A stretch of 64,000 nucleotides of DNA from a bacterium (GTDB lineage: Bacteria > SZUA-182 > DTGQ01). Position 1 is the first letter of the stretch. The number at the start of each line of letters is the position of its first letter. The translations under genes were made by a program, and so were the position numbers. Under the pieces are notes generated by a model. The model was not told the origin of the DNA and did no database searches. It saw only the letters and a program-made list of their open reading frames with translations. The stretch is taken from assembly GCA_040755755.1 (NCBI GenBank), contig JBFLZW010000001.1, positions 124,001-188,000 of the forward strand. Direction: 5' to 3'. Shown here one piece after another: positions 28,056-34,197 of the stretch.

Positions 28056-28320
28056 TCACTTCCCTCGTTGATTTTGGATCCCCGCCCCTATAGAATATTT
28101 ATCGACCTTAAGTATATCGTTATACATCGAAGATGACAATCTTATTTTTGGTAAAGCCTGCTCAACTATTCGAATAAAAATTTTACCACATTTCCCCTCC
28201 TCGTATTGTTTCGTGCTCCGGGGAAAGGTTTTCATTTGTATTGATCCGACAGGCCAGATTTAGTACTATAAGCAGAGTATCTGAGCCGACCTGTATACCT
28301 GAGACCGTAATCATTCAACC

Positions 28321-28335
28321 AAGGAGAACCAGATC
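28321..28335 (+). promoter_or_regulatory. Strong Shine-Dalgarno before an in-frame ATC codon
   Basis: AAGGAGA at 28321-28327 is a near-perfect ribosome-binding site. Five bases on, at 28333, is ATC in frame with the dikinase gene, and the frame is open from a TGA near 28300. Between here and ATG 28498 there is no in-frame ATG, GTG or TTG, yet the encoded peptide (FWQLSLEQPE, YLTLTITAHRPDQ) reads like the start of the carbohydrate-binding domain. This suggests initiation at ATC. Confidence 0.45.
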
Positions 28336-28497
28336 GTTACTGCCCAGGATAAGGAAAGAGAGCTTGCAGCCGCAACCGGGCCGGTTCTGCTCTCAGGGAA
28401 CGAGAATGACATCTTCTGGCAGCTTTCGCTGGAGCAGCCGGAGCCGGAGCGACAGTATCTGACCCTGACCATAACCGCCCATCGCCCTGATCAGCCC

Positions 28498-31400
28498 ATG
28501 CTTCATTGGGGTGTAACTTATGAAAAATGGTCGGAGTGGATCGCTCCGCCACCGATCATTCGACCGCCGGGAACCGGAGACAGCCGGGATGGGCTGGCAG
28601 TGCAGACTCCCATGATTGACGAGGGCAATAACCGTTTTTCGGTAACTATAACCATTCCAACAGGCCTGAATATCAGGCAGGTTTTCTTTGTGCTCTATTT
28701 TCCCCGGAGTCATCAGTGGGATAACAACCTTCAGCAGGATTATGCCATTCCCCTGCCCTCGGATCCGGACATTCTGTCGCTGCTGGTGCGGCAGAAGGAA
28801 AACACCCCGGTTCGGTCACTGGCAGGATTGATCCTTGGCCGGGAGAACAGAAAATCCTGGGAAATGGGGATGCGGCTCGAATTCATCGGGCAGCTTCTGG
28901 ATGAGTTTGAGCCCGCCGAATCCATGCTCAGCCTGCTGGAGATTTATTTACAGTATGCGGCTCAAGGTCATCTTCCCTGGCGACGGCACTATGATCGCCA
29001 GACGTATATACTGGCCCCGAAGATTCTGGGACTGGCGATAAAAATATCCGGCATGGTTTCCTCATATCCCCGGTTTTTGCACTTTTTCCGGCGAATGCTG
29101 GGAAATCTCCCCTCTTCGGGCCGCAATTTGCAGGATATCGGGCTGGCCATCCGGCTCAAGATTCTGGAGTGCAAGGACCATCAGAACCGGCTCATCTATG
29201 ACCGGTTCGTATCCGAGTTCCACCAGAAGCTGCACAATGCCAGCGGCCCTGAAGATGTGGCTGTCTGCCGGGCTTATCTGGCCTTTCTGGACTCGCACGG
29301 GGATATCGACCGCTTCGGCGAAAGCCTTTGGCAGGCGGGGCTGGCCAAAAAGGAAAACCGGGATGGGCAGGAAGTAATCATCCCCCTGCTGGATATTTAC
29401 GGAGATTATCGCTCCATTCAGCATCTTCCGACCTATGAGCCCGGGAAAGCCCAACCTACCCGGAAGGTCTTTCAGGAGCTTCTCACCCTTCTGGAGAATT
29501 TTTTCGGGGGTATGGAAGTGGAGGAAGCGATCGCCCTGGTCCAGCTCCGGGCTGATTCGGCCCTCCGGCAAGGGTTGCTGGACTTTCTGGCCCATAAAGA
29601 AAAACCGAAGGAGCAGGGGACCGGACCTGACATCATTCGGCATCTGTCACACCTTCGGCATCAGCTTCACGCAAAAGTACTGTGCACCTCCACTGCCGAG
29701 GAAATCCGCGACCTTCTGCACCTTGATCTGGTTCTGGATAATTACGCCAGAGCCCTGGCCGGTTCATTACTGAATGACCTGGTATTCCGGAGCAACGATC
29801 AACCTGCCGAATCGCTGTCTGTCTGCCTTGAGCTTTTCCCGGCCATCCTCCTGCACCTTTTCCCCGGCGGCCTGCTGGATCCTGAAATCCTCCTGATCCA
29901 GCAGCAGGTGCACCAGTGGGGGAAGAGGGGCGACTGCCGGGGCAATGAATGTGACCATGAGTATGATGAAGACTGGTGTTTACAGGGAAAGGCTATTTTT
30001 GACCGCCTCAGCCGGGTTGTTCAGGCACAGGTCAGCAGGCAGGTGGCGCTCTACCAGCCGAAGGCGGAATTACTCGGCCGTTTGCTCGAAATCAGGCCGC
30101 AGGTCTGGCAGACTTTCAGCGAGGAGAACCTGCGCAATGACTGGCTGTTTTACCTCTCCCGGCTGGTCACTCTCATCAGGCAGGTTCTGCGGCGGATAGC
30201 GGGATGGAGCCCGACCGAAGTACTGGTGCCCGGCCGTGTCCGGGGGATAGTAACCAGATTGCCTGATCTTTCATCCATCCCCTCATCCTCATCCTTCCCT
30301 CTGATTCTGCTGGTAAACCACCTGCGGGGAGATGAGGATATACCGGGGAGCGTGGCTGCTCTTATCAGCCGGGTGCCGCGGGACCGGATGAGCCACTTTG
30401 GCATCCGCGCCCGGGAGCAGGGCGTGGTCTGGATTTATTGTGAGGAGGAATCTGGCTACCGGCAGCTCGAAGCCTATGAGGGGAGGTGGATTGAACTTGC
30501 AGCCGACGAGGACCATTTCCACACCGCTCCCATCGAACCCTCATCAGCCATGCACCAACCTGCCACAAGAGCCGCACGGCCAGGATTTTCCGTTCCCCCG
30601 GTGCGCCTGGCCGAATCATTCACCCTGCTGACCCCCGACCGGTATGAGCTTTCGACCGTCGGCCCCAAAGCCTGTCAACTGCGTCTGCTTACGGAGCGCC
30701 TCTCCGGCCAGGTGCAGGTGCCGGATTCCCTAGCCGTGCCCTTTGGCGTGTTCGACCTGGTGTTACGGAGTAACCCAAAAGGATGCAGCCAGTACCGGCA
30801 CATCACTGCTGCCCTGGCTGCGGAATCGGGGGGCGGGGTATCCGGCCTGCTGGAAACCGTGCGCGGCCTGATTGAATCGCTCGATATCGATGAGGCTTAC
30901 AGTGCGGAATTGAAAAGGACTGTCCGGGAAAGATTCGGCCGGGAAGTGCCGCTGATTGTCCGTTCAAGCTCCAATGCCGAGGACCTTGAAGGGTACAGCG
31001 GGGCTGGCCTGTATGAGTCCTATCCCGGCGTGGGCTGTGAGGAATTGCCCCGGTACCTGAAAAAGGTATGGGCTTCCCAATGGACACAGCGGGCAGTGAG
31101 TAACCGTGCCCGCTCAGGGGTCCTTCCTGAAGATGTTCACCTGGCTGTGTTGATCCAGGAGTTGATTCCGGCCGATTATGCCTTTGTGACTCACACCCGC
31201 TATCCCTTGACCGGAAGGCAGCAGGGTCAGGTATATATCGAGGTGGTCCAGGGGCTGGGAGAATCGCTGGTCGGAGGATCCGAAGGGCAGGGATACCGCT
31301 TTCTGTATGACCGGACCTCACAGGAAGTGAAACGGGCAGGTTTTGCCAACAAGGGACATCGCTGGGTGATCGGGCAGGACGGCCTTCCTGCCAGGATCTT

Positions 31401-31578
31401 GGCTGACTACTCGAACGATTTCCTGTCCCTGGAAAAGAAGAATTGGGAAACCCTGATTGGCCACATTGGCCGCATCTCGGTCATGATCGAAGCAGCCTGG
31501 GGAAATCAGCCCCAGGATATCGAAGGAGTTATCAGGGGCAGAGAGGTTTTTATCGTTCAGACCAGGCCGCAGGTTTGA
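28498..31578 (+). CDS. Alpha-glucan water dikinase homologue (GWD-like)
   Basis: Dikinases of this type phosphorylate glucose units of starch-like glucan with the beta-phosphate of ATP through a phosphohistidine. The beginning (LHWGVTYEKWSEWIAPP, then PPGTGDSRDGLAVQTP) resembles the CBM45 starch-binding repeat of plant GWD. A phosphohistidine domain is seen at LVNHLRGDEDIPGSVAAL with H633 in RMSHFGIRARE. The C-terminal ATP-binding domain has VRSSSNAEDLEGYSGAGLYE from about residue 821 and ends with VFIVQTRPQ. In PEP synthase the histidine domain is arranged differently, so GWD is the better fit. The first ATG is 28498, but the coding frame probably begins about 55 codons earlier at an ATC with a strong RBS. 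A phosphatase gene follows. Confidence 0.82.
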   Translation: MLHWGVTYEKWSEWIAPPPIIRPPGTGDSRDGLAVQTPMIDEGNNRFSVTITIPTGLNIRQVFFVLYFPRSHQWDNNLQQDYAIPLPSDPDILSLLVRQKENTPVRSLAGLILGRENRKSWEMGMRLEFIGQLLDEFEPAESMLSLLEIYLQYAAQGHLPWRRHYDRQTYILAPKILGLAIKISGMVSSYPRFLHFFRRMLGNLPSSGRNLQDIGLAIRLKILECKDHQNRLIYDRFVSEFHQKLHNASGPEDVAVCRAYLAFLDSHGDIDRFGESLWQAGLAKKENRDGQEVIIPLLDIYGDYRSIQHLPTYEPGKAQPTRKVFQELLTLLENFFGGMEVEEAIALVQLRADSALRQGLLDFLAHKEKPKEQGTGPDIIRHLSHLRHQLHAKVLCTSTAEEIRDLLHLDLVLDNYARALAGSLLNDLVFRSNDQPAESLSVCLELFPAILLHLFPGGLLDPEILLIQQQVHQWGKRGDCRGNECDHEYDEDWCLQGKAIFDRLSRVVQAQVSRQVALYQPKAELLGRLLEIRPQVWQTFSEENLRNDWLFYLSRLVTLIRQVLRRIAGWSPTEVLVPGRVRGIVTRLPDLSSIPSSSSFPLILLVNHLRGDEDIPGSVAALISRVPRDRMSHFGIRAREQGVVWIYCEEESGYRQLEAYEGRWIELAADEDHFHTAPIEPSSAMHQPATRAARPGFSVPPVRLAESFTLLTPDRYELSTVGPKACQLRLLTERLSGQVQVPDSLAVPFGVFDLVLRSNPKGCSQYRHITAALAAESGGGVSGLLETVRGLIESLDIDEAYSAELKRTVRERFGREVPLIVRSSSNAEDLEGYSGAGLYESYPGVGCEELPRYLKKVWASQWTQRAVSNRARSGVLPEDVHLAVLIQELIPADYAFVTHTRYPLTGRQQGQVYIEVVQGLGESLVGGSEGQGYRFLYDRTSQEVKRAGFANKGHRWVIGQDGLPARILADYSNDFLSLEKKNWETLIGHIGRISVMIEAAWGNQPQDIEGVIRGREVFIVQTRPQV

Positions 31579-31670
31579 CCTGCACGGGCCTGATCTTTTG
31601 CTTGAACAATAGGGAATATTACTGCACTGAACCTGAGTAATCACTAACGAACGATGGAGATTAACAGGCC

Positions 31671-32879
31671 ATGACTGATCAATTTGTCCTGATCAAAGAG
31701 ATTCATCCACCCCTGGGGTCCTCACGCACGCTGTATATGCTGGAGCCTTTTGGCGTGATTGTTAAGGTTGCATCCCGCTCTTCACCCCAGAACCTGACCG
31801 CGGAAATCTGGACCAATGTCATCGATAAGCTCAGCCCCGACGGAGTGTGGCATGGAGTTCCCATGTACCTTAATTCCCGGCATTCAGCGGGGATTCTGGA
31901 GTTTCACGGCTCTTTCATGCCCACCGACCAGGGCCGGTTCGAGTACACGGTCCGGATCGGCCTCAAACGAAGCGGGCAGTATTACCCTTCTCAATGGCAG
32001 TGGGCCGGAGCGTATGGGCAGAACGGATCGTTGACTGTCCTTCCCCCTTCACCGGAAATGCAGTGGACCCAGGGGCCGCAGGCTGAGGAGATTGCTCCCG
32101 GAGTATTTGTCGGAAATCTCATTGCTGCCTCCAAAGCCCCTGAGCTTGGCTTTCAGGCTGTATTGAATATGGCTGAAGAACTGAATATCGGCTTTCCTTC
32201 CGGCGGGGTTGAATATAAAAAGATCGCCCTGGCTGATGGGGCCCATAATCCGATCCCTCCGGAGAAAATCCTGGATGCCGTATCCTGGATTCAGCAGCAG
32301 GTTAAAAAAGGGCATAAGGTTTGCGTTAATTGCCGGGCCGGAATCGGCAGGTCAGGGTCGATCGGGATCGCCTATCTGTATGCTTCCAATCCTGCCTGGC
32401 CATACTCCAGGGCATTGCAGGCTGCCTGGGATAAAAAGCCGAATATCTATCCCCATAAAAATCTGCAGGAAACTCTTGAAGCTCTCTTTCCCAGAAAGCC
32501 GAAAGAGCATACCCTGTCCAGCCATGAAAACCCTTCGGGTTTATCGTCCTCCGGCCAGATTCAATGGGTGAAATATGTTGATTTTCAGCCAGGCCAGCAT
32601 ATCGAAATCTCCCGCTATCAGCCCCTGATCATCCGGATCAGAATCAAAGCTGCTGATGCCGATCATCAGGCCCTGGTGACTCTTCGAACCAACCTCAATC
32701 AGGACCCCTTTGAAGAAGTGGAGCTGTATAATAGCCGGGGCGACGGAATTTACGAAGGACAAATTCAGGCCAAAAGGGGTGGTGAATACTGGCTTACCGC
32801 CTCAGCCTCTTTGCATGAGAAGCTCCCGGATAATGAACGCTCATGGGCTGGAGACAATCTGATCATCCGGGTGAGATAA
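31671..32879 (+). CDS. Dual-specificity phosphatase flanked by beta-sandwich domains (possible glucan phosphatase)
   Basis: 402 residues. The centre (about 135-275) is a dual-specificity phosphatase: FVGNLIAASKAPELGFQAVL, a candidate general acid D189, and the P-loop CRAGIGRSG with nucleophile C221 and R227. The histidine usually before the cysteine is asparagine (VNC). Residues 1-125 look like a beta-sandwich of the kind in glucan enzymes (GVWHGVPMYL, GRFEYTVRIGLKRSG, WQWAGAYGQNG). The last 110 residues form a second Ig/CBM-like domain. Plant glucan phosphatases (SEX4, LSF) and animal laforin combine the same fold with a carbohydrate-binding module. Lying 93 bases after the dikinase gene, it is a candidate for removing the phosphate the dikinase adds. 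No signal peptide, so cytoplasmic. Confidence 0.75.
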   Translation: MTDQFVLIKEIHPPLGSSRTLYMLEPFGVIVKVASRSSPQNLTAEIWTNVIDKLSPDGVWHGVPMYLNSRHSAGILEFHGSFMPTDQGRFEYTVRIGLKRSGQYYPSQWQWAGAYGQNGSLTVLPPSPEMQWTQGPQAEEIAPGVFVGNLIAASKAPELGFQAVLNMAEELNIGFPSGGVEYKKIALADGAHNPIPPEKILDAVSWIQQQVKKGHKVCVNCRAGIGRSGSIGIAYLYASNPAWPYSRALQAAWDKKPNIYPHKNLQETLEALFPRKPKEHTLSSHENPSGLSSSGQIQWVKYVDFQPGQHIEISRYQPLIIRIRIKAADADHQALVTLRTNLNQDPFEEVELYNSRGDGIYEGQIQAKRGGEYWLTASASLHEKLPDNERSWAGDNLIIRVR

Positions 32880-32982
32880 GGCTTAAAAAAAGTAGCTGAA
32901 AAGTACCTTCTGATACGATCTACCTAAGTATAAGGTCACTCATTCTAAGAACCCATCTTTTTTGTATCGGGAGGGAAAGGCT

Positions 32983-34197
32983 TTGAGGGTCGATAACGAA
33001 GAGAAGGCACTCAGAAAGTTAAAAAACCGCATTAAACTTTGTTCCCGGGGTATTACCCTGCCAACTGGATCAAAACCCGTGCTTCACCTGCAATCGAAAC
33101 AGGGAGGGGCAGGGCCGCAGGGAGTGGCTTCCTATGTTGGCGAAACTCCGGGAGATCACACCAGTCAGATAAGCCTGCTGATTTTTCCCGAAGAGCATTA
33201 TCTGGCCCGGTATGCCCTGCCCACGCACTGGCACGAAACAGGTTTAAACGGCAGGGGAGAGAAAGAGGGAAAAATCCTCCAGGCAGGGCCGGACATCTTC
33301 CTGGAAAAGGTGCCGAGCAACTGGAGAGGATCATTACCGGATGGCCGCAGAGCAAATATGCTTTCAAAGGCGCGGTTTCATCCCTATCGGACCTTCTCCA
33401 TTTGTCTGTACCGGGATTGCAGGCATCTTGAAAATGACGAGGGATGCAAGTATTGCACCGCCAATTTGCTGATCAATAAACTTAACCTGCATGAACGGTT
33501 GTCGGATCAGGAAAACCTGGATTACCTCAAGCTGGCTATTACCAATAATCCTATTCGCTCGGTAACCCTGACCAGCGGTACTTTTGAATCTCCGGAAAAG
33601 ACTGCCAGGGAGCTGATATCTCAAGCCAGGCTGATCAAGGAGAAAACCGGCATGTCGATCCATGTTCAAATCGAACCGATTTTCGATCGGACCCTTATGA
33701 AAGAGTTGAGCGAAGCCTGTGATTCAATCGGCCTGTTCCTGGAATTCTTCGATGAGCGGGTTCGCCGTGAAATCTGCCCCGGCAAAGCCAGAGCATTCTC
33801 TCAGGAAGATTACCTGAGGAGCTGGGAACTTGCCGCCTCCTGCTTTGGCTGGGGAAAAGTATTCACCACCAACATTCTCGGTTTCAATGAGGATTACGAG
33901 GTTATCCTCCAGGGAATTGAACGCGCGGCTAAGGTCGGCGTAATGACCTCTCTTCTCTGGCTCCGGGTCGGCAGCCCGCAGTTAGGTGAATTTATTCCAT
34001 CCTATCTTGAAAAAGATGAAAAATTGCTCTTGCAGCTCCATATGGATGCAGGGAAAATCCTGGTGGAAAACTCGGTGGACAGCATTGCCGGAGAAAATTC
34101 CGGCTGCCTGGGCTGTCATGGATGCAGTGCGAGCAGCGAGGCTATTTCCTGGGCACGAATAGCCTCCAAGAAGAGCGAGGCGGTAAAAGTTGGCTGA
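32983..34197 (+). CDS. Radical-SAM-like protein with atypical cysteine spacing
   Basis: The TTG at 32983, preceded by GGGAGGG, is preferred over an upstream TTG at 32962. The 404-residue protein has a TIM-barrel look: the cysteine cluster SICLYRDCRHLENDEGCKYC (C141, C146, C155, C158), then SVTLTSGTFESPEKTA and VQIEPIFD, as in radical SAM barrels. The canonical CX3CX2C is not present; spacing is CX4C-X8-CX2C. A second cluster, CLGCHGC, lies near the C-terminus and could bind an auxiliary iron-sulfur centre. The substrate is unknown. It follows the phosphatase gene by about 100 bases and may share its transcript. Confidence 0.62.
   Translation: MRVDNEEKALRKLKNRIKLCSRGITLPTGSKPVLHLQSKQGGAGPQGVASYVGETPGDHTSQISLLIFPEEHYLARYALPTHWHETGLNGRGEKEGKILQAGPDIFLEKVPSNWRGSLPDGRRANMLSKARFHPYRTFSICLYRDCRHLENDEGCKYCTANLLINKLNLHERLSDQENLDYLKLAITNNPIRSVTLTSGTFESPEKTARELISQARLIKEKTGMSIHVQIEPIFDRTLMKELSEACDSIGLFLEFFDERVRREICPGKARAFSQEDYLRSWELAASCFGWGKVFTTNILGFNEDYEVILQGIERAAKVGVMTSLLWLRVGSPQLGEFIPSYLEKDEKLLLQLHMDAGKILVENSVDSIAGENSGCLGCHGCSASSEAISWARIASKKSEAVKVG

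Follow-up and report, generated by a model that had tools for sequence, protein, structure and literature searches.

A glucan-dikinase-family gene next to a dual-specificity phosphatase gene in a bacterium: possible reversible phosphorylation of a glucan

The window (the whole stretch of 64,000 nucleotides analysed here) comes from the genome of an uncultured bacterium, 5.26 Mb in 88 contigs (G000). It carries, on the forward strand, neighbouring genes for a protein of the glucan dikinase family, a dual-specificity phosphatase (DSP) and a radical SAM protein. The features of the locus are the following:

28303-31578, + strand: open frame that contains the dikinase
28321-28327, + strand: AAGGAGA, a likely ribosome-binding site separated by 5 nt from the ATC at 28333, with AAGGAG at the same place in the related locus L020
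28333-31578, + strand: glucan-dikinase-family protein, about 1081 aa from 28333, recognised by motifs, Pfam and phmmer, its start putative
28435-28755, + strand: N-terminal Ig-like GWD domain with LHWGV, a CBM45-type starch-binding region, PF23166 (Ig_N_CWD1), E 1.5e-14
28840-30201, + strand: GWD-type helical domain in the middle of the protein (residues 170-623), matched by phmmer to the GWD chain 9ha9 with E 2.5e-19
30217-30534, + strand: phosphohistidine domain, PF22973 (GWD1_pHisD), E 2.2e-18
30655-31572, + strand: C-terminal ATP-binding domain in unpermuted PPDK order, PF01326 (PPDK_N), E 4.8e-35, contiguous over 3-309
31671-32879, + strand: DSP, 402 aa, PF00782, E 1.3e-12, above cut-off, with orthologues in the genomes G001, G002 and G003
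31671-32075, + strand: orphan N-terminal beta-rich domain of the DSP, conserved in all four relatives
32085-32489, + strand: DSP catalytic domain, CRAGIGRS, with D189 (32235-32237), C221 (32331-32333) and R227
32562-32876, + strand: C-terminal beta-rich domain of the DSP, in the window protein only
32962-34197, + strand: radical SAM protein, third gene of the triad, PF04055, E 1.2e-9, 57-82% identity to its relatives

The start of the dikinase gene is peculiar. There is no in-frame ATG, GTG or TTG upstream of 28498, and at 28333, where the ribosome-binding site points, stands an ATC, which could be either the start itself or a sequencing error. If the first ATG (28498) were the start, the N-terminal domain would be cut. 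Counted from 28333, LHWGV lies at residue 57, HQKLH at 297, the catalytic histidine at 688 and RSSSNAEDLEGYSGAGLYES at 877; the H633 of the initial annotation is this same H688, counted from the ATG at 28498. At the other end of the gene there is a terminator-like stem, of a kind no commoner than expected by chance.

The initial annotation had described a GWD-type dikinase with an LHWGV domain, a phosphohistidine domain and a C-terminal ATP domain, and both Pfam and the motifs confirm it, PF23166, PF22973 and PF01326 all scoring above their curated cut-offs. The N-terminal domain is present as a single copy, is of the starch-binding type as judged by its sequence and reaches E 9e-24 against a profile of bacterial GWD N-terminal domains. 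The helical region (residues 170-623) has its counterpart in two GWD fragments of solved structure, 9ha9 and 9qvi (E ~1e-19), and the catalytic H688 (codon CAC, 30394-30396) is part of the motif SHFGIRAR, in which S687 and H688 are invariant across an alignment of seven GWDs. The three GWD-specific regions are thus either above cut-off or matched with E 1e-14 to 1e-19, and sequence comparison confirms the protein as a true member of the glucan dikinase family. Its ATP domain also matches PEP synthase and rifampicin phosphotransferase, to which the protein might be related instead. However, these families match nothing beyond that domain, the other three regions being GWD-specific, and their full-length models score 108 and 102 bits against cut-offs of 866 and 999, respectively. 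Because of the domain content and the missed cut-offs we reject this identity, which we regard as extremely improbable; the dikinase is nearer to GWD, as had been proposed.

The ATP-binding domain is the part that sets the protein apart. Plant GWD1 carries the RSDxxxED segment late (permuted order), and so do the GWDs encoded on contigs C84 and C22 of the same genome and nearly all other bacterial GWDs. This GWD1-type permutation (RSDxxxED after the VWAS segment) is absent in the window dikinase, in which RSSSNAED (30961-31020, residue 877) precedes KKVWAS (residue 910). Such an unpermuted order is the mark of PWD/GWD3; plant PWD/GWD3 (EC 2.7.9.5) has it together with an N-terminal CBM20, and the window dikinase shares it with the bacterial PWD-like proteins compared here. 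It differs from PWD and PWD-like proteins in having neither a CBM20 nor a xylose-isomerase-like barrel (Pfam finds no CBM20 or AP_endonuc_2-like barrel at the N terminus, PF23166 being the sole domain there) and in falling outside the bacterial PWD-like clade. With plant GWD1 (EC 2.7.9.4) it has in common the Ig/CBM45-type N-terminal domain, the helical domain, the phosphohistidine domain with its conserved histidine and the C-terminal ATP domain, but the plant enzyme has tandem N-terminal domains where the window dikinase has one. Going by its domain order, the enzyme is therefore an unusual one, a GWD-like front end joined to an unpermuted PWD-like ATP domain, and not a plain GWD.

In unrooted trees, calculated for the helical and for the ATP region, the clade of the window dikinase is set apart on a long branch that lies between the GWDs and the PWD-like proteins. 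The branch of the plant GWD fragment is long as well in the helical-domain tree, and for this reason we claim no origin for the enzyme. One protein with the same architecture was found in an Auribacterota locus (L027). The window enzyme could fill the PWD role beside the C84 GWD in G000, a genome without a barrel-type PWD-like protein. In the related genome G002 (96% complete) the window-type dikinase is the only type found, so that it may also act alone. A third GWD subtype occurs in the family of the window genome (L017:9977-12892, L018:10466-13129 and L021:1100-3814), in which the ATP domain is permuted and the N-terminal CBM45-type domain is missing, and which forms a long branch of its own.

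The phosphatase follows the dikinase, as the initial annotation had stated, its frame starting 92 bp past the dikinase stop. The C-x5-R phosphatase with C221 was also recognised correctly: PF00782 is above cut-off, and C221, R227 and the acid D189 are present and invariant in the four orthologues, of which those of G001, G002 and G003 are 70%, 82% and 61% identical to the window protein. The idea that the DSP lies between two beta-sandwich domains held in part. Strands are predicted on both sides of the catalytic domain, a weak support given the poor model (pLDDT 50, from an alignment of four sequences), and the three relatives keep the orphan N-terminal domain and the DSP domain but are missing the C-terminal one. 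The N-terminal domain is without a match in Pfam and without a reliable one among PDB sequences, and neither flanking domain could be connected by sequence to a known carbohydrate-binding module. No kinship of either to the CBM45 domain was found (hhalign probability <1%), and a Pfam match of the N-terminal domain in L113 (E 0.09) was discarded as noise. Fold searches returned mostly nanobodies, with GlgE, GlgP (glycogen phosphorylase) and the CBM21 of PTG weakly among them; since the model is poor, these matches are taken as a hint and not as evidence.

By profile comparison, the nearest relatives of the DSP are PDB chain 5z5b, an archaeal-type PTP, and generic DSPs (E ~1e-11). The matches to LSF1 (E 0.0044) and laforin (E 0.008) are far weaker, and profile comparison did not reveal a closest kinship with the known glucan phosphatases (laforin/SEX4/LSF). 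The window protein resembles SEX4, LSF2 and laforin in its DSP fold, in the C-x5-R motif with an upstream Asp, in having an extra beta-rich domain and in being the genetic partner of a glucan dikinase. It differs from them in being bacterial, in the orphan nature and N-terminal position of its accessory domain and in having no specific sequence kinship to them.

All four genomes of the family share the gene order dikinase-DSP-radical SAM (G000, G001, G002 and G003; loci window, L019, L020 and L113, the dikinase of L113 being a fragment at a contig end). The triad is under purifying selection, with dN/dS between the window and L020 of ~0.21 for the dikinase and ~0.09 for both the DSP and the radical SAM protein. 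The last of these has TIGR04043 (MSMEG_0568 family) as its nearest model (E 1e-29, below cut-off), and its gene is duplicated in tandem in G001 (L019:4773-7296). Within the sample of the phylum (nine genomes, including G000) a DSP of any kind was found only in the four family genomes, and the only one above cut-off in each is that of the window locus; G000 has one further match below cut-off. Outside the clade, none of 50 GWD-bearing genomes has a full-length orthologue of the window DSP, and the DSPs found in loci from such genomes are unlike it beyond the catalytic domain. The pair, which had been expected to be conserved elsewhere, is therefore the arrangement of one lineage, present throughout the family and absent from those 50 genomes. 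The four triad genomes are close kin, so that they count as one evolutionary event and not as independent evidence.

The main alternative accepts the dikinase as a glucan dikinase and gives the DSP another substrate. This would be either a small molecule that carries phosphate or a phosphoprotein, perhaps the radical SAM protein or an enzyme of glycogen metabolism. The affinity of the catalytic domain to generic DSPs and archaeal-type PTPs speaks for it, as do the orphan partner domains and the identity of the third conserved gene, a radical SAM enzyme without a known role in glycogen metabolism. Nevertheless, the DSP is tightly linked to the dikinase and co-occurs with it in four genomes that have no other DSP above cut-off, and all known glucan phosphatases are DSPs (PMC13011383). 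On balance we consider this explanation unlikely.

A link of the pair to glycogen genes had also been suggested. Within the 64 kb window none of the glycogen genes tested for is present, and the link exists by way of the C84 GWD paralogue and of the loci of other bacterial GWDs. G000 encodes two further GWD proteins, on contigs C84 and C22. The gene of the former (L016) lies directly before that of a GH13 hDGE-type enzyme, which is followed by a GDE_N/GDE_C debranching enzyme, and the genome also encodes a starch synthase, CBM48 enzymes and a phosphorylase relative.

Beyond this family, we scanned 84,980 species genomes with an alignment of GWDs only and obtained 131 relatives (a lower bound, because of the patterns used in the scan), 80 of which were examined at the locus. 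They come from MAGs labelled Nitrospirae, Deltaproteobacteria/Desulfobacterales, Planctomycetota, Verrucomicrobia, Myxococcales, Gammaproteobacteria, Omnitrophota and Acidobacteria, among others. Their distribution is patchy: a GWD was found in 24 of 296 sampled genomes of the phylum of L089 (Nitrospirota) and in 5 of 395 of the phylum of L026, one in each set being below cut-off, and in none of 14 control genomes. At least 27 of the 78 examined loci outside the window family have a PWD-like dikinase directly behind the GWD. The examples checked by Pfam combine an N-terminal xylose-isomerase-like barrel with an unpermuted ATP domain, and dikinases of this barrel type are found at L047:12360-16037, L052:12387-15992 and L061:2992-6861. 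A starch synthase, a branching enzyme or a GH13 hDGE-type gene was present in the examined flank of 31 of the 78 loci.

This genomic context bears on a second alternative, that the polymer served by the pair is not glycogen and that the dikinase phosphorylates, for instance, an oligosaccharide or a glucan that is secreted or forms a capsule. It would agree with the lack of glycogen genes near the pair and with the long branch of the dikinase, apart from both the GWD and the PWD-like clades. However, the N-terminal domain of starch-binding type has been retained, and other bacterial GWDs adjoin starch synthase, branching enzyme and GH13 genes, which makes this alternative quite improbable in our view.

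Our preferred reading, which we favour somewhat, is that the dikinase and the DSP form a module for the reversible phosphorylation of an alpha-glucan. The dikinase would dock on a storage glucan via its CBM45-like N-terminal domain and transfer the beta-phosphate of ATP through His688 to glucosyl hydroxyls, while the adjacent DSP would strip the phosphate esters by a Cys221-phosphate mechanism with Asp189 as the acid. Phosphorylation would disturb the order of the polymer and open it to attack, after which the phosphate would have to come off again for phosphorylase and debranching enzyme to continue. Family membership, the catalytic residues, adjacency, conservation under purifying selection, the glycogen genes of the genome and the GWD paralogue in a glycogen locus are observed; the substrate, the hydroxyl position, the direction of use and the action of the DSP on glucan are what we infer. 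The writing half of the cycle is well supported, drawing on what is known of the family. The erasing half, the predicted action of the DSP on phosphoglucan, is plausible, on the grounds of adjacency, co-occurrence, an intact active site and the fact that the known glucan phosphatases are all DSPs. The cycle put forward in the initial annotation thus keeps its GWD-family writer, and sequence does not place its DSP with laforin or SEX4. This placement, the orphan domains, a pair confined to one family, a window without glycogen genes and the non-canonical start of the dikinase all count against the module.

Among known systems, the TgGWD/TgLaforin cycle of Toxoplasma (PMC9254107) similarly has a glucan dikinase functionally paired with a DSP in one organism, but it is eukaryotic, its genes have separate locus numbers and its laforin carries a CBM20. 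A 2009 survey of laforin and SEX4 judged a bacterial glucan phosphatase unlikely (PMC2714694). A paper of 2018 reported GWD so far only in starch accumulators, proposed that some bacteria had acquired it by lateral transfer and mentioned bacterial GWD sequences in passing (PMC6260743). Our searches of the open-licence literature brought up no account of a bacterial dikinase paired with a DSP, nor of tandem GWD and PWD-like genes in the glycogen loci of bacteria. Tentatively, and with more reserve than for the module itself, we suggest that bacteria might run a complete write-and-erase phosphate cycle on their storage glucan. In it, the tandems of several phyla would be a widespread writer, and the window DSP, whose accessory domain resembles none of the known ones, would be the first glucan phosphatase from a bacterium. 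If this were true, glucan phosphorylation would not be an invention of eukaryotes or of the plastid age, and the two plant dikinases, GWD and PWD, could go back to a pair of bacterial enzymes. The dikinase-DSP pair and the tandems make both published views (PMC2714694, PMC6260743) testable with small soluble enzymes, with a bearing on the origin of starch phosphorylation and on the question of a covalent mark on bacterial glycogen.

Other components of these bacterial loci deserve mention. The barrel of the PWD-like dikinase of L047 also matches the model of the phosphodiesterase CbiR (E 1.9e-8, below cut-off), and dikinases with such a barrel have the writer joined to a phosphoesterase-like fold within a single polypeptide. 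Directly behind the GWD and PWD-like pair there is often a conserved gene for a protein of ~350 aa without a Pfam match (L048:15872-16915, L052, L033, L047, L026 and others; 19 loci by profile). A confident model of it (pLDDT 90) shows a TIM barrel whose closest folds are those of endonuclease IV and sugar isomerases, with conserved His, Asp and Glu, so that, going by this predicted structure, it could be a metal-dependent phosphoesterase and a possible eraser other than a DSP. Finally, a DUF4912 protein is encoded in the flank of bacterial GWDs at L026:18281-19102 and at eight other loci, often with a GH57 branching enzyme, which makes DUF4912 a candidate glycogen-associated family.
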